From: Chloroflexota bacterium
GTDB lineage: Bacteria; Chloroflexota; Anaerolineae; UBA4142; SHND01
DNA: 49,145 nt
NCBI GenBank assembly: GCA_016209205.1
Contig: JACQWQ010000006.1
Location: forward strand, 1-49,145
Direction: 5' to 3'
Every line of letters begins with the position of its first letter. Position 1 is the stretch's first letter. Under the pieces are notes generated by a model. That model was not told the origin of the DNA and did not search any database. It saw only the letters and a list, made by a program, of their open reading frames with translations. Positions 1-16,766 of the stretch are shown one piece after another. A program made the translations under genes and the position numbers.

Positions 1-327
1 TCCGTTACCCTATCCGTAGGCAGCGCGTGCGCGGGGGAAGGACTGCCAACGGATGTGAAAAACGGATGAACGGATGGGCGCGTCCGTATCCGTTCATCCG
101 TTACAATATCCGTTGGCAGCGCGTGCGCGGGGGAAGGACTGCCAACGGATGTGAAAAACGGATGAACGGATGGGCGCGTTCGTATCCGTTCATCCGTTAC
201 CCTATCCGTTGGCAGCGCGTGCGCGGGGGAAGAGCTGCCAACGGATGTGAAAAACGGATGAACGGATGGACGCGTTCGTATCCGTTCATCCGTTACCTTA
301 TCCGTTGGCAGCGCGTGGGGTGCAACT
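1..327. repeat. 96-bp tandem repeat array with internal palindrome
   Basis: At least three near-identical 96-bp units run from the window edge; the anchor CAGCGCGTG recurs at 21, 117, 213 and 309. Each unit holds ACGGATGAACGGATGG, a short spacer, then TCCGTTCATCCGTTA, so every unit can fold into a hairpin, and the arms are themselves made of an 8-bp step (AACGGATG). An open frame through the array would give a repetitive protein, which I treat as spurious. The last unit ends 19 bases before the next gene's start codon. The array may continue left of the window. Confidence 0.9.
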
Positions 328-11926: not shown

Positions 11927-12961
11927 ATGCTTGGCACATTGACCGGCAACCTCGCCGTCAAATACAACGAGGCGACGAATCGAACTCTGGCGCTGCCGCT
12001 GTTGATTTTTTATCCGACGGCGCGCTGCAACTCGCGCTGCCTTTCGTGCGATTGGTGGAAAGCAGACGGTCGAGATGATTTGACATGCGAGGAAATCCGC
12101 GCGCTCGCGGCGCAACTGCCCGCGCTGGGTGTACGCGTGATTGTGTTTTCCGGCGGCGAACCGTTATTGCGGCGCGAAGTATTTGAAATCGCGGCTTTGT
12201 TTCGCGCGCACAATCTCAAGTTGCAATTGCTCACCGCCGGTCTGTTTTTGGAGCGCGACGCGGAAAAAATCGCGCAGCATTTTGAACAAGTGACGATTTC
12301 GCTCGATGGACCGACCAACGCGTTGTATCAAGCCATCCGCGGGGTGGACGCCTTGGCGTTGGTCGAACGCGGCGCGAAAAAATTCCGGTGCGTCGCGCCG
12401 CACCTTCCGCTGCGCGCGCGGAGCACGTTGCATCGTCACAATTTTCGCGCGCTGCCGCAATTGATTGACAAGGCGCGGACGATGGGTTTGGAGCAAATCT
12501 CATTTCTTGCGACGGATGTGACGAGCGAAGCGTTTGGACGGGCGCGGGGAGAACATCCGATACGCGAATTGTTGTTGGAGGAAAAGGAAATAAGGGAATT
12601 CGAGCAAGTCGTCGAGCAAACGATTATGTCACACGCGCGCGATTTTGAAACGCGCTTCGTCGCGGAATCTCCAGACAAATTGCGCCGCTTGCCGCGTTAT
12701 TATGCCGCACAGTTGGGATTGGGCGCGTTCCCGCCGATTGCGTGCAATGCGCCGTGGGTCAGCGCGGTGATTGAAGCGGACGGCGCAGTGCGCCCGTGTT
12801 ATTTTCACAACGCGGTGGGAGATGTGCGGGAAAAAAGTTTGCGCGACATTTTGCAGGACGCGATGCCCGCGTTTCGCGCGACGCTCGACGTGCAAGCCAA
12901 CGCCGTGTGTAAAAAATGTGTCTGCACGCTCAAAGTGGGGATGCGGACAAGACTATGGTAG
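11927..12961 (+). CDS. Radical SAM protein with SPASM-like C-terminus
   Basis: 344 residues. The radical SAM cluster motif is PTARCNSRCLSCDWW near residue 30 (CxxxCxxC), followed by VFSGGEPLLRREVFE and TISLDGP, hallmarks of the family. The C-terminus has CNAPWVSAVIEADGAVRPCYFH and CKKCVC, a SPASM/twitch-type second Fe-S cluster. Relatives include heme- and peptide-maturation enzymes as well as surface-glycan enzymes. It completes a three-gene run with two methyltransferases. A REP-transposase block lies directly downstream, starting four bases before its stop codon ends. Confidence 0.82.
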   Translation: MLGTLTGNLAVKYNEATNRTLALPLLIFYPTARCNSRCLSCDWWKADGRDDLTCEEIRALAAQLPALGVRVIVFSGGEPLLRREVFEIAALFRAHNLKLQLLTAGLFLERDAEKIAQHFEQVTISLDGPTNALYQAIRGVDALALVERGAKKFRCVAPHLPLRARSTLHRHNFRALPQLIDKARTMGLEQISFLATDVTSEAFGRARGEHPIRELLLEEKEIREFEQVVEQTIMSHARDFETRFVAESPDKLRRLPRYYAAQLGLGAFPPIACNAPWVSAVIEADGAVRPCYFHNAVGDVREKSLRDILQDAMPAFRATLDVQANAVCKKCVCTLKVGMRTRLW

Positions 12962-13096
12962 TGACGATTTCAATCGTTTCCCCTATGCAAACAAACCATG
13001 AACGATTAAAATCGTTACTGCCTTTACCACACGTCCGTCGTAGTGACGATTTCAATCGTCAGTAAACAAACAAAGAACGATTAAAATCGTAACTAC
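12958..13096. repeat. Two BIME-like palindromic units upstream of the RAYT gene
   Basis: Units at 12958-13020 and 13040-13096. Each begins GTAGTGACGATTTCAATCGT and ends with the inverted, slightly diverged arm ACGATTAAAATCGT plus TACTRC. Each arm alone can fold (ACGATT facing AATCGT), with GTAG at the outer foot, which is the layout of paired REP sequences. Confidence 0.9.
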
Positions 13097-13110
13097 TCCA
13101 AGCTGCGCCT

Positions 13111-13710
13111 ATGTTCTACCAATATCGCCAAATGACGCCCGAAGAACGCGCCCAAGTTGTGCAGCAGCGCCGCGAACGTGGCTTTCCGTTACACGCGCCG
13201 CCACACCCATTTCGTCATGCCGGTAATTATTTCATTACCGTTGTCAATTATGAGCACAAGCCCATCATGGCAGAACCCGCGCGCCGCAGCGAAATCGAAG
13301 CGCGACTCCTCGACGAGCTGCGCCCTTTCGAGGTAGATGTAAACGCGTGGGTCGTTTTGCCGAATCATTATCATACGCTCGTCAGCGTCAAGCACCTCGA
13401 TTTGTTATCGGCGGCATTGAAACAAATACATGGCGCTACGGCGCGGGCGTGGAATTTGCAGGATGGATTGACGAATCAACGACGTGTCTGGTACAAGTTT
13501 CGAGATCGAATGATTCGCGACGAAGCGCATTTCTATCACGCGCTGAATTACATTCATATAAATCCCGTCAAGCACGGCTATGTCCAAGACCCGTACGAAT
13601 GGCCATGGACAAGTTTGGAAAATTATCGCATGACATGGGGACGAGATTGGCTAAACGAAAAGTGGACAGCGTACCCGCCCGGCGATTTCGGCAAGGGGTG
13701 GGATGATTAG
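13111..13710 (+). mobile_element. REP-associated tyrosine transposase (RAYT, TnpA_REP)
   Basis: 199 residues, a single-domain HUH/Y1 transposase of the IS200-like superfamily in its REP-associated form. The metal-binding HxH is in LPNHYHTLV near residue 89, and a Tyr followed by HALNYIHINPVKHGY near residues 147-162 supplies the catalytic tyrosine region; the ending PYEWPWTSL is characteristic of RAYTs. RAYTs are single-copy domesticated transposases that bind and nick GTAG-footed REP hairpins and are thought to spread them. Here two such hairpin pairs lie directly upstream and at least three downstream. It is inserted between a radical SAM gene and a methyltransferase gene. Confidence 0.93.
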
Positions 13711-13723
13711 CCGTAGCGACGGC

Positions 13724-14002
13724 GTAGTGACGATTTCAATCGTTTCCCCAGCGCAAATACACAGCGAACGATTAAAATCGTTACTACGTCTCGTGCGCGC
13801 TTGGGTCTGGCGTAGTGACGATTTCAATCGTCGAATCTGCGCAAGTCAACCATGAACGATTGAAATCGTTACTACGTCTAGCGCGCGCTTGGGTCTGGCG
13901 TAGTGACGATTTCAATCGTCGAATCTGCGCAAGTCAACCATGAACGATTGAAATCGTTACTACGTCTAGCGCGCGCTTGGGAACGAATGAATTCGTTACT
14001 AC
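13724..14002. repeat. 88-bp tandem array of BIME-like units downstream of the RAYT gene
   Basis: Units start at 13724, 13812 and 13900, exactly 88 bp apart; the second and third are virtually identical. Each is a 64-bp pair of facing REPs (GTAGTGACGATTTCAATCGT ... AATCGTTACTAC) plus a 24-bp spacer. A sixth half-unit at 13983-14002 has a different stem (ACGAAT facing ATTCGT) but keeps the CTAC foot, and contains the likely start codon of the next gene. Confidence 0.92.
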
Positions 14003-14682
14003 TCCGCTCGCTGCACCGCAAGTTTTTGATGCTGCAACGCCAATGGTGGCGCGTAGATTTGAAGCGCGCGCGCTTGCATCATGTTCACGGCACACCGCTG
14101 ATCATTTTGCCGGATGTGTTCGATGGGGTGTTGACGCGCACGGGCGTATTTTTAGTCGAGACGCTGCACGATTTGGATTTACACAACGCGCGCGTGCTCG
14201 ATCTCGGCTGTGGTTCGGGCATCGGCGCGGTGTTTGCCGCGCAACGCGGAGCGCGCGTAATGGCTGTGGATGTGAATCCCGACGCGACGCGTAATGCGCA
14301 GTTGAACGCGCTGTTATCCCATCTCGAAAACCAAATTGACACGCGGACCGGCGATTTGTTTGAAACCGTGCGCGACGAGCGCTTTGATTTGATTCTGTTC
14401 AATCCGCCGTACTATCACGGCGCGCCGCGTGACGCTGCCGATGCCGCCTGGCGCAGCCGCGACACGTTCGAACGCTTTCTGGATCAATTTCCAAAACAGC
14501 TCGCGCCGCACGGGCGCGCCCGCATCGTCCTTTCGAGCGACGGCGATATTGAAGCGTCACTGGCCGCCGCCGCCGCGCATTTGAAAACAAACCTTGTACG
14601 CCGTCATGATTTTCACAACGAAATCCTCACGGTGTACGATTTATATCCACTATGTCGGAAACAAAGTTTCCGACAGGATTAA
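13987..14682 (+). CDS. Class I SAM-dependent methyltransferase (HemK/RsmC-like NPPY motif)
   Basis: About 231 residues. Motif I is VLDLGCGSGIGAVFA, motif II VMAVDVNPDA, and motif IV LILFNPPYYHGAPRD, where NPPY is typical of methyltransferases acting on planar nitrogen (Gln, adenine or guanine of RNA/DNA). The start is uncertain: the ATG at 13987 lies inside a REP hairpin, longer frames translate REP DNA, and an ATG at 14029 is possible. The repeat insertion may have replaced the original 5' end. The last codons overlap a perfect hairpin at 14653-14675, so both ends of this gene touch repeats. Confidence 0.78.
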   Translation: MNSLLLRSLHRKFLMLQRQWWRVDLKRARLHHVHGTPLIILPDVFDGVLTRTGVFLVETLHDLDLHNARVLDLGCGSGIGAVFAAQRGARVMAVDVNPDATRNAQLNALLSHLENQIDTRTGDLFETVRDERFDLILFNPPYYHGAPRDAADAAWRSRDTFERFLDQFPKQLAPHGRARIVLSSDGDIEASLAAAAAHLKTNLVRRHDFHNEILTVYDLYPLCRKQSFRQD

Positions 14683-14720
14683 CAGGATTGACAGGATTGG
14701 TCTCGGATTCAAGTTCAAAA
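14653..14720. repeat. Perfect hairpin and ACAGGATT short-period repeat
   Basis: TGTCGGAAAC-AAA-GTTTCCGACA forms a perfect 10-bp stem at 14653-14675 within the last codons of the methyltransferase gene. It runs into ACAGGATTAACAGGATTGACAGGATT, another short-period repeat. There is no T-tract, so it is not a clear intrinsic terminator. Confidence 0.75.
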
Positions 14721-14748
14721 ATCCTGTCTATTCCAAATAAAATCCGCT

Positions 14749-15291
14749 ATGAAACCATGGAAAACACTGGCACGCGAAACGATCCTCGATCAAGGCAAAT
14801 ATCTGGTCGTGGAAAATCACACGATTGAACTGCCCGACGGGCGCATTCTGCCGAATTGGGCGTGGCTCATTACGCCCGCGTATATCAACGCGATGGTGCT
14901 GACAGACGACGATCATTTTTTGTGTTTTCGGCAAACCAAATACGGCATCGCCGGTACATCGCTCGCGCCGCTCGGCGGTTACCTCGAGCCCGGCGAAGAA
15001 CCGCTGGCGTGCGCGCAGCGTGAATTATTGGAAGAGATGGGCTGCGTCGCCGACGAATGGATCAAGCTCGGAACGTATTGTGTGGACGGGAATCGCGGCG
15101 CGGGGACGGCGCATTTGTTTTTCGCGCGCGGCGCGCGCAGGGTGCAAGCGCCCGACGCGGACGATTTGGAAGAACAAGAACTCGTGCGCTTGACGCGCGT
15201 ACAAGTGTCTAACGCGCTGGCGCGCGGCGATTTCCGGGTGCTCGCCTGGGCGGCCGTCGCGGCGCTCACGCTTGCGTGTGTGAATCCATGA
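14749..15291 (+). CDS. Nudix hydrolase (ADP-ribose pyrophosphatase-like)
   Basis: 180 residues. The Nudix box is complete: GGYLEPGEEPLACAQRELLEEMGC, matching G-x5-E-x7-R-E-U-x-E-E-x-G-U. The N-terminal strand pattern (LVVENHTIELPDGR, NAMVLTDDDHFLCFRQTKYG) fits the ADP-ribose/sugar-nucleotide pyrophosphatase group. Such enzymes hydrolyse nucleoside diphosphates linked to another moiety, here perhaps a sugar nucleotide given the surrounding glycan genes. Its stop overlaps the start of the following radical SAM gene (ATGA), implying coupled translation. Confidence 0.87.
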   Translation: MKPWKTLARETILDQGKYLVVENHTIELPDGRILPNWAWLITPAYINAMVLTDDDHFLCFRQTKYGIAGTSLAPLGGYLEPGEEPLACAQRELLEEMGCVADEWIKLGTYCVDGNRGAGTAHLFFARGARRVQAPDADDLEEQELVRLTRVQVSNALARGDFRVLAWAAVAALTLACVNP

Positions 15292-16766
15292 AACCAAAAA
15301 TTGTGTTTTACAATCCCGCGAGCAACGCGTCCGGCAAAAAAATTTTGCCCATGTCGCTGCTTGCGCTCGGCGCGGTGCTCGAAGGGAAATATACCTACAG
15401 CATCGTAGACGGCAATGTGGAACGCGATGTCTCGAGCGCGCTGCGCCGCGAAATTCAAAACGGCGCGAATGTGTTGGCAATCACGGTGATGCCCGGTCCA
15501 CAGTTGAAACGCGCGGCGCCGCACTCGCGCGCGTTGAAACAAGAATTTCCGAATTTGAAAATCGTGTGGGGCGGATATTTTCCAACGCAGCACGCGGAAA
15601 CAGTGTTGAAAGACGCCGCGATTGATTTTGTCGTGCGCGGTCACGGCGAAATGGTGTTTTTGAATTTACTCGACGCCTTGGCGGATGAAACCGCGTTCAA
15701 CCCCATTGAGGGACTGGCGTTTCGCGACGCGGACGGGCGCATCGTGCAAAACAAACTCGCGCCGCTGCCGCACCCCGAACAATTGCCCGCGTGGCGTTAC
15801 GAACGCGTGGACGTGCCGCAATACCTTCGCCCGACCTTTCTCGGCTCGCGCACGCTGCCCCATCATTCGTCGTACGGCTGCCCGTTCTTTTGCAATTTTT
15901 GCGCGGTGGTGAACATGGTGAACGGGCGCTGGCTGCCGCAAAGCGCGGCGCGTGTCGCGGAAATCGCGCGGCGATACGTTGAGGATTGGGGCGTGAATGC
16001 AATCGAGTTTTACGACAATAATTTCTTTACGCACGAAGCGCGCACCGCCGAATTTGCCGAACGCGTGCTGGATTTGAATATTCACTGGTGGGGCGAAGCG
16101 CGCATTGATGCGCTGCTCAAGTACTCGGAGCGCAGCTGGCAGTTGATGCGCGATGCGGGATTGAAAATGGTTTTCATGGGCGCGGAATCGGGTTCGCTCG
16201 AAACACTGAAACGAATGGACAAAGGTGGTACCATGTCGCCGGCCAAGACGCTCGAAATCGCGCACAAGATGGAGCGGTACGGCATCGTTCCCGAATTTTC
16301 ATTCGTGCTCGGCAGTCCACCCGACCCCGAAAGCGACGTGCGCGACACGATTGAATTCATTCGCCGCGTCAAGACGGTCAACCCGCGCAGTGAAATCATC
16401 ATGTACAATTACACGCCCGTACCCCTCGCCGGCGATTTGTACGACGCCGCGCAAGCGCAAGGATTTCGCTTTCCCGAAACGCTGGATGAATGGCTCAGCG
16501 ACGCGTGGATGAATTTTTCGCAGCGCTACAGCGATGTGATGCCGTGGCTGAAACCGGCATTGAAACAACGCGTCCGCAATTTTGAACGCGTGTTGAATGC
16601 GTACTATCCCACTTCAACCGACCGTCGCCTGTCGGGCGGAATGCGTACGCTGCTGCGCGGCGCGAGCGCGTGGCGCTACCATACACGCCTGTACAGTTTC
16701 CCTATCGAACTCCGCGCCCTGCAAAAGGTGGTGCACTATCAACGTCCCGAAACCAGCGGCTTTTGA
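15288..16766 (+). CDS. B12-binding-domain radical SAM protein
   Basis: 492 residues from the ATG at 15288, which overlaps the Nudix stop; a GTG four codons upstream is possible. The N-terminal cobalamin-type domain (LPMSLLALGAVLE, LKIVWGGYFPTQHAE, IDFVVRGHGEMVF) is followed by the radical SAM motif SSYGCPFFCNFCAVV near residue 197, then IEFYDNNFF, FMGAESGS and EFSFVLGSPPD. This is the common anaerobic layout seen in BchE- and hopanoid-methylase-like enzymes, but the substrate cannot be told. It shares family with 5121-6620. The GT87-like gene follows in another frame. Confidence 0.88.
   Translation: MKPKIVFYNPASNASGKKILPMSLLALGAVLEGKYTYSIVDGNVERDVSSALRREIQNGANVLAITVMPGPQLKRAAPHSRALKQEFPNLKIVWGGYFPTQHAETVLKDAAIDFVVRGHGEMVFLNLLDALADETAFNPIEGLAFRDADGRIVQNKLAPLPHPEQLPAWRYERVDVPQYLRPTFLGSRTLPHHSSYGCPFFCNFCAVVNMVNGRWLPQSAARVAEIARRYVEDWGVNAIEFYDNNFFTHEARTAEFAERVLDLNIHWWGEARIDALLKYSERSWQLMRDAGLKMVFMGAESGSLETLKRMDKGGTMSPAKTLEIAHKMERYGIVPEFSFVLGSPPDPESDVRDTIEFIRRVKTVNPRSEIIMYNYTPVPLAGDLYDAAQAQGFRFPETLDEWLSDAWMNFSQRYSDVMPWLKPALKQRVRNFERVLNAYYPTSTDRRLSGGMRTLLRGASAWRYHTRLYSFPIELRALQKVVHYQRPETSGF

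Follow-up and report, generated by a model that had tools for sequence, protein, structure and literature searches.

REPtrons, paired repetitive extragenic palindromes (REPs), GTAG feet, single-copy REP-associated tyrosine transposases (RAYTs) and GTAG repeats in Chloroflexi are all already known. RAYTs from Escherichia coli, Stenotrophomonas and Marinomonas have been studied in vitro. According to PMC8266576, these enzymes bind the folded single-stranded REP and cut it at a CT step (in Marinomonas also at CA) under the guidance of GTAG, and the complementary strand is inactive. Here we describe a RAYT gene and its surrounding hairpins in a 49,145-nucleotide stretch of DNA from a Chloroflexota bacterium (the window: assembly GCA_016209205.1, contig JACQWQ010000006.1, positions 1 to 49,145 of the forward strand). 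This locus is very probably a REPtron, that is, a single-copy domesticated IS200/IS605-like HUH transposase among REP units of its own family. A first, sequence-only reading of the window had proposed a complete REPtron, in which direct and inverted GTAG REPs flank the RAYT. It had named in advance three findings that would speak against this proposal: REPs absent elsewhere in the genome, no linkage to RAYT genes in relatives, and a protein without the HUH and Tyr residues. None of the three was found, and the same REPs are dispersed genome-wide. The non-proteobacterial setting was also recognized correctly, as the host belongs to the Chloroflexota. This setting is less surprising than the earlier reader thought, because GTAG repeats in Chloroflexi have already been published (PMC3733652).

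The REPs in the window read GTAG-TG-ACGAT-TTCA-ATCGT. The same layout of GTAG, two nucleotides, a 5-bp stem and a TTNA loop recurs in the Mb REP of the gammaproteobacterium Marinomonas sp. MWYL1; this likeness comes from the REPs and not from the protein sequence, and the two systems differ in their hosts and in the presence here of two stem families with one RAYT. The Mb REP (group 3) combines GTAG and 2 nt with a perfect 5-bp stem and the loop TTTA; T12, T13 and A15 of this loop are needed and N14 is free (PMC8266576). E. coli TnpA-REP (group 2, structure 4ER8) is likewise a single-copy HUH-Tyr enzyme with GTAG feet and opposed, paired REPs of slightly different kinds, namely y, z1 and z2 in E. 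coli, and GTAGTA/GTAGTG and ACGAT/ACGAA in our case. The E. coli REPs are longer and contain a bulge (PMC8266576), whereas those in the window are short and perfect. The Sm system of Stenotrophomonas maltophilia (group 3) is similar in its perfect short stem, its loop-dependent recognition and the requirement of GTAG for cutting (PMC8266576), but has an 8-bp stem and the 3-nt loop GCT. Finally, the repeats described by Di Nocera in 2013 (PMC3733652) are GTAG-tagged palindromes from the same phylum. None of six Chloroflexi genus or species words occurs in the main text of that paper, to which the search was confined, with figures and supplements outside it. Palindrome counts for three Chloroflexota species are given in PMC12306157, the main text of which does not contain the word RAYT.

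In agreement with the sequence-only reading, the open reading frame (ORF) of the HUH transposase at 13111 lies between two paired units upstream and three downstream:

12958..13021, REP pair 1, 64 nt: a unit of the sequence given above, then an inverted unit with the decayed foot CTGC (13018-13021)
13040..13096, REP pair 2, 57 nt: GTAG...CTAC, upstream of the RAYT
13111..13710, plus strand, RAYT (TnpA-REP) gene: 199 amino acids, assigned by NCBIfam NF047646, the 4ER8 alignment and conserved columns
13724..13787, REP pair 3, 64 nt: first pair downstream of the RAYT
13812..13875, REP pair 4, 64 nt: exact copy of pair 5
13900..13963, REP pair 5, 64 nt: third pair downstream of the RAYT
13981..14002, minus strand, lone REP from the second stem family (GTAGTAACGAATTCATTCGTTC): ACGAA in place of ACGAT as its stem
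11927..12961, plus strand, radical SAM/SPASM protein gene (PF04055, PF13186): upstream neighbour and left edge of the empty site
13987..14682, plus strand, HemK/PrmC-like methyltransferase gene (PF05175): downstream neighbour and right edge; start codon uncertain, probably 13987

All five plus-strand units of the window are identical to GTAGTGACGATTTCAATCGT, and the minus-strand units are slightly variable. GTAG or CTAC feet are present in 10 of the 11 units; the earlier statement that all hairpins carry them is therefore correct except for pair 1, which ends in CTGC. As single-stranded DNA, the REP 20-mer is predicted to fold as ......(((((....))))), with six unpaired bases (GTAG + 2), a 5-bp stem and the loop TTCA. 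Folding of the pairs gave z scores from -4.5 to -7.0 (four pairs tested, as pair 5 equals pair 4). The downstream pairs had been described as an exact 88-bp array. Exactness applies to pairs 4 and 5, where 99 bases recur at an offset of 88 (13795-13893 = 13883-13981), and 73 of 88 positions agree between the first and second downstream copies. Most simply, this repeat beside the RAYT is a local tandem duplication of a REP pair and its linker by slippage or recombination between units, with no transposition step. The block ends touch both neighbouring genes: the radical SAM gene terminates with the TAG (12959-12961) of the pair 1 foot, and the single REP at 13981-14002 contains an in-frame ATG (13987) as a possible start of the methyltransferase gene.

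The RAYT protein scores 100.1 bits with the NCBIfam equivalog NF047646 (REP-associated tyrosine transposase, cut-off 80), and its score with the general Pfam model Y1_Tnp is under the cut-off. The closest solved structure is that of E. coli TnpA-REP (4ER8 chain A, E 4.8e-12 by phmmer). Y147 aligns with residue 115 of this chain (number counted from the alignment), which we take to be the catalytic tyrosine of the E. coli enzyme. The HUH motif consists of H86-Y87-H88, and Y147 is embedded in NYIHxNPVKHG. Proper alignment confirmed the presence of these residues: among the 23 homologues found at E <= 1e-50 in genomes of the same class (the clade), H86 occurs in 22, H88 in 23 and Y147 in 22, with N-Y-H in L086. 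Pairwise dN/dS values of 0.03-0.08 (four pairs, dS near saturation), including 0.06 against the RAYT of genome G005 (dS 1.74), indicate that the gene evolves under purifying selection. The host genome (G000, 6.38 Mb, 93.9% complete) holds a single close RAYT match; in this respect and in its selection, the RAYT resembles a housekeeping gene. Five other genes of the host are Y1_Tnp-like or distantly RAYT-like; within the stretches examined, the nearest REP is at least 1.15 kb away from them, and there is none on contig C238. An AlphaFold2 model of the RAYT from a two-row alignment (mean pLDDT 40) was too poor for use.

Assignment of this protein to a described RAYT group can be discussed on the basis of a few residues. 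E100, H101 and Q95 of the E. coli enzyme correspond to D132, R133 and Y128 in an alignment read by eye. For group 3 / subclass 2.5, PMC6006769 reports replacement of E100 by D and sometimes of H101 by R, a well conserved Q95, and short, perfect REPs, some with the foot 1-2 nt off the stem. The REPs in the window are indeed short and perfect as judged by the DNA fold. D132 is found in 23/23 and R133 in 21/23 clade members; however, these residues are unspecific for subclass 2.5, because the same replacements are stated for subclass 2.7 (PMC6006769). In a protein tree, RAYTs from E. coli, P. aeruginosa, a cyanobacterium and another Chloroflexota plasmid fall outside the clade, with a weak dividing branch (71/65); the eight outside rows of this tree all come from a plasmid collection, with no group-3 reference among them, and the E. 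coli row is 45% filled.

The sequence-only reading also predicted that REP variants should occur elsewhere in the genome. With at most 3 mismatches allowed, the seed GTAGTGACGATTTCAATCGT has 237 matches in the host and its backwards pattern 0; the degenerate pattern GTAGTNNCGNNTTYANNCGY gives 276 matches and its reversed control 0. Given the 237 seed matches against 0 reversed and the folding z scores of -4.5 to -7.0, the units in the window are not there by chance. Twelve stretches that had not been picked for REPs (163 kb) contain 7 strict units, or 43 per Mb, close to the density of the pattern in the whole genome. We examined 85 clusters in stretches partly picked by the seed search, which biases this sample to close matches. 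Single units make up 45 of these clusters, and 40 contain two or more. With a crude ORF caller and sites partly chosen by seed similarity, 40 clusters lie between ORFs, 25 overlap an ORF end and 20 fall inside an ORF. Two examples of REPs inside ORFs, one from G000 and one from G005, are worth recording (both ORFs named from their translations). At L156 (G000 C71:30409), a REP pair lies in frame within an etf-like ORF. At L199 (G005 C70, 15310), a single REP lies within an amidase-like ORF and is absent from the G000 orthologue L151, which makes a filled and empty pair inside a gene.

Of 135 strict units, 68 have the stem ACGAT and 65 the stem ACGAA; these two stem families have foot and loop in common. 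When hairpins consisting of GTAG, 2 nt, a 5-bp stem and a 4-nt loop were collected without fixing the loop, TTNA was found in 153 of 156 (a figure that includes repeat counts from overlapping loci). Units no more than 100 bp apart are arranged convergently (GTAG...CTAC) in 40 cases, divergently in 14 and directly in 16. Of the 35 convergent pairs located outside the window, 28 mix the two stems, compared to 52% expected (p 0.0005 with pairs treated as independent, an assumption that tandem copies violate). In the window, all five pairs join same stem with same stem.

The link between REPs and RAYT genes extends to relatives. RAYTs of the clade occur in 23 of 298 class genomes, with one match of at least 43% identity per carrier. 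GTAG-footed hairpins flank 22 of these 23 genes (the exception is L044), compared to none of the 11 more distant homologues examined (L046-L049, L051, L052, L098-L102; 29-38% identity; one flank of L049 and L051 shortened by a contig end). The strict layout is found near 21 of 23 clade RAYTs and 0 of these 11; it is missing at L044 and at L045, where the spacer is 3 nt long. REP matches number 10 or more in all 13 genomes whose RAYT shares at least 55% identity with ours, compared to 21 of the other 285 (Fisher p 5e-14); these counts were tallied by eye, and by the same reading the reversed pattern gives at most 4 in every genome. Within the genus, the two carriers of a clade RAYT have 276 and 120 matches, and four non-carriers have 2-7 (reversed control 0-2). 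The expected linkage in relatives is thus present, and the surrounding REPs are, by inference, cognate to this RAYT. As a separate observation, genomes G031, G119, G255 and G279 combine 68-141 REP matches with the absence of any RAYT match at E <= 1e-15.

Comparison within the clade allowed us to separate the parts of the REP. The sequence-only reading had supposed that the foot, rather than the stem, is constrained, and it pointed to the half-unit at 13981-14002, which does retain its CTAC foot next to the deviating stem ACGAA. This supposition stands insofar as the foot is fixed and the stem varies, but it is not the foot alone that is kept. The half-unit also retains the loop TTCA, and near clade RAYTs the loop is TTNA in 124 of 127 strict hairpins (TTCA, TTTA or TTGA). 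When no foot is required, GTAG accompanies 124 of 143 TTNA hairpins. When no stem is required, all five positions pair in 124 of 137 GTAG-N7-TTNA sites and four of five in another 10. Stems seen in the clade include ACGAC/GTCGT, ACGGC/GCCGT, AGCGC/GCGCT and GCCAC/GTGGC. The pairing counts imply that one stem gives way to another through matching changes in both arms, with foot and loop constant. Judged from these counts, the foot GTAG and the loop TTNA are fixed and the stem covaries across the clade, with the apical loop constrained almost as strictly as the foot.

Several observations weigh against the interpretation of the locus as a REPtron with its own cognate enzyme. Binding, cutting and movement are attributed to this RAYT by analogy with distant enzymes from Marinomonas, Stenotrophomonas and E. 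coli. The bin is 93.9% complete, so that it may lack a second RAYT. Instead of the glutamine expected at the position of Q95 for group 3 / subclass 2.5, the clade has Y128 (22/23) or F (1/23). At L044 (G018), the region upstream of the RAYT contains an array of a longer, different GTAG...CTACGAAC palindrome (GTAG/CTAC), which does not have the TTNA format. Of the 10 carriers with lower similarity (43-49% identity), just two, G163 and G193, reach 10 matches or more; the genome-wide pattern says little about the other eight, because the stems beside most of them misfit this pattern. Conversely, 19 of the 21 other REP-rich genomes lack a clade RAYT at E <= 1e-50, among them G031 (128 matches), G119 (141) and G255 (105); five of the 19 (G072, G077, G132, G144, G273) have a distant homologue only (E <= 1e-15). 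Such genomes may have lost the gene, may be incomplete as bins or may rely on another enzyme. Finally, the RAYTs at L088 and L090 contain in-frame stops and that at L086 has N-Y-H in place of H-Y-H, and their genomes still have REPs, from which it appears that some RAYTs decay while REPs persist.

The surroundings of the locus bear on the question of how it came to its present position. An empty site between the radical SAM and methyltransferase genes had been anticipated, and it is present in two genomes of the same order, G018 and G013, where the two genes are separated by about 60 bp and the RAYT/REP block is absent; G018 carries its own clade RAYT at another site. In G002, from the same genus and without this RAYT, a B12 radical SAM gene begins 56 bases past the stop of the radical SAM orthologue (78%), and the gap is free of REPs. 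The radical SAM proteins of the window and of G002 end at the same residue (RLW and KLW before the stop), and both genes read TGG TAG at this point, so that the left-edge GTAG of the block may be older than the block itself. As an alternative to insertion, G002 may have lost the block. In G005, the RAYT adjoins a B12 radical SAM gene that is 93% identical to that of G002, and the radical SAM/SPASM gene is truncated by the contig end; the RAYTs of the window and of G005 likely occupy a common site. Common RAYT flanks were also found, among the matches listed, for L071/L087 and L092/L095. The B12 radical SAM gene of the window (15276-16766) is 70-74% identical to those of another family and 50-51% to those of genus mates (compared with L115-L117, L068 and L187), which suggests that the right flank was exchanged or differently kept. 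Between the methyltransferase gene and a NUDIX gene, a CAGGATT-like heptamer is repeated at 14655-14735, also in inverted form; it is unrelated to the REPs.

A block that was inserted relative to G002, G018 and G013, or lost there, and that has REPs on both sides could also be read as an autonomous IS200/IS605-type transposon that moves as a unit with the REP hairpins as its ends. We consider this very unlikely. Such elements are expected in multiple near-identical mobile copies, whereas every one of the 23 carriers yields a single match at 43% identity or more, and the host has one close copy of the RAYT next to repeats in the hundreds. Purifying selection on the RAYT and its recognition by the RAYT equivalog rather than by the Y1_Tnp model also speak for a domesticated enzyme in a REPtron.

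Many REPs are found at gene ends. Among 47 gene 3' ends that face a foot-bearing cluster edge, 12 stop at the TAG of the foot itself and 11 more lie within 10 nt; any other stop-to-foot distance is represented by at most 3 genes. C151 and C9:86702, which belong to these 12, are doubtful as ORFs. We do not claim a target rule, because insertions into coding tails in one of three frames would give the same peak and because 20 clusters lie inside ORFs. Five stop-foot genes (radical SAM, C256, C9, C116 and C277) were compared with their orthologues. The ends of the radical SAM and C256 genes equal those of the orthologues or differ by at most 1 residue, and the C9 product extends 1-2 residues beyond 11 of its 12 orthologues. 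Among the orthologues compared, GTAG is natively present at the stop only in G002 (radical SAM) and G018 (C277), so that a foot taken from the target is no more than a suggestion. GTAG REPs have been described as often supplying stop codons (Di Nocera, PMC3733652).

Alternatively, the REPs might be retained as terminators or mRNA stabilisers at transcript ends, with the adjoining RAYT incidental. This reading would fit these positions and the strong RNA folds of the three pairs tested (z -7.0 to -9.1), but we consider it very unlikely, given that REP presence tracks the RAYT clade with GTAG units beside 22 of its 23 RAYTs, that the RNA fold of the one single unit examined is weak (z -0.75), and that no Rfam family matches at gathering score within 12700-14300. 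A scan for promoters and terminators gave counts inside the shuffle spread. A secondary role of the REPs at transcript ends alongside the REPtron is conceivable.

For the REPtron, the known enzymes suggest the following mechanism. The RAYT would bind the single-stranded REP, and not its complement, through the foot and the loop. Y147, together with H86, H88 and a metal ion, would cut close to a CT (or CA) step, which base pairing with GTAG would select. The ends would then be joined, and in this way GTAG...CTAC pairs (REPIN/BIME units) would reach new sites by copying or transfer, frequently at a stop codon or immediately past one. Foot and loop would be the parts that are read, the stem would be structural and Y147 would be the nucleophile. 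Going further, and only tentatively, we propose that a recognition code of GTAG and TTNA, in which the stem counts only as a stem, might be common to this Chloroflexota clade and the gammaproteobacterial enzyme; that one enzyme might serve two stem families that preferentially cross-pair; and that new units might arise at a stop-codon GTAG, with the foot partly supplied by the target.

Among the papers listed by a literature search, none deals with this clade or with its TTNA format in Chloroflexota; most subscription journals and bioRxiv preprints lie outside the coverage of this search. A separate RAYT clade in another phylum, present in 23 of 298 genomes, offers natural variation that splits a constant foot and loop from a changing stem. 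This constancy of foot and loop agrees with the in vitro result from a distant bacterium. Furthermore, a genus with carriers, non-carriers and an empty site is a good setting in which to date the gain and loss of a REP population.

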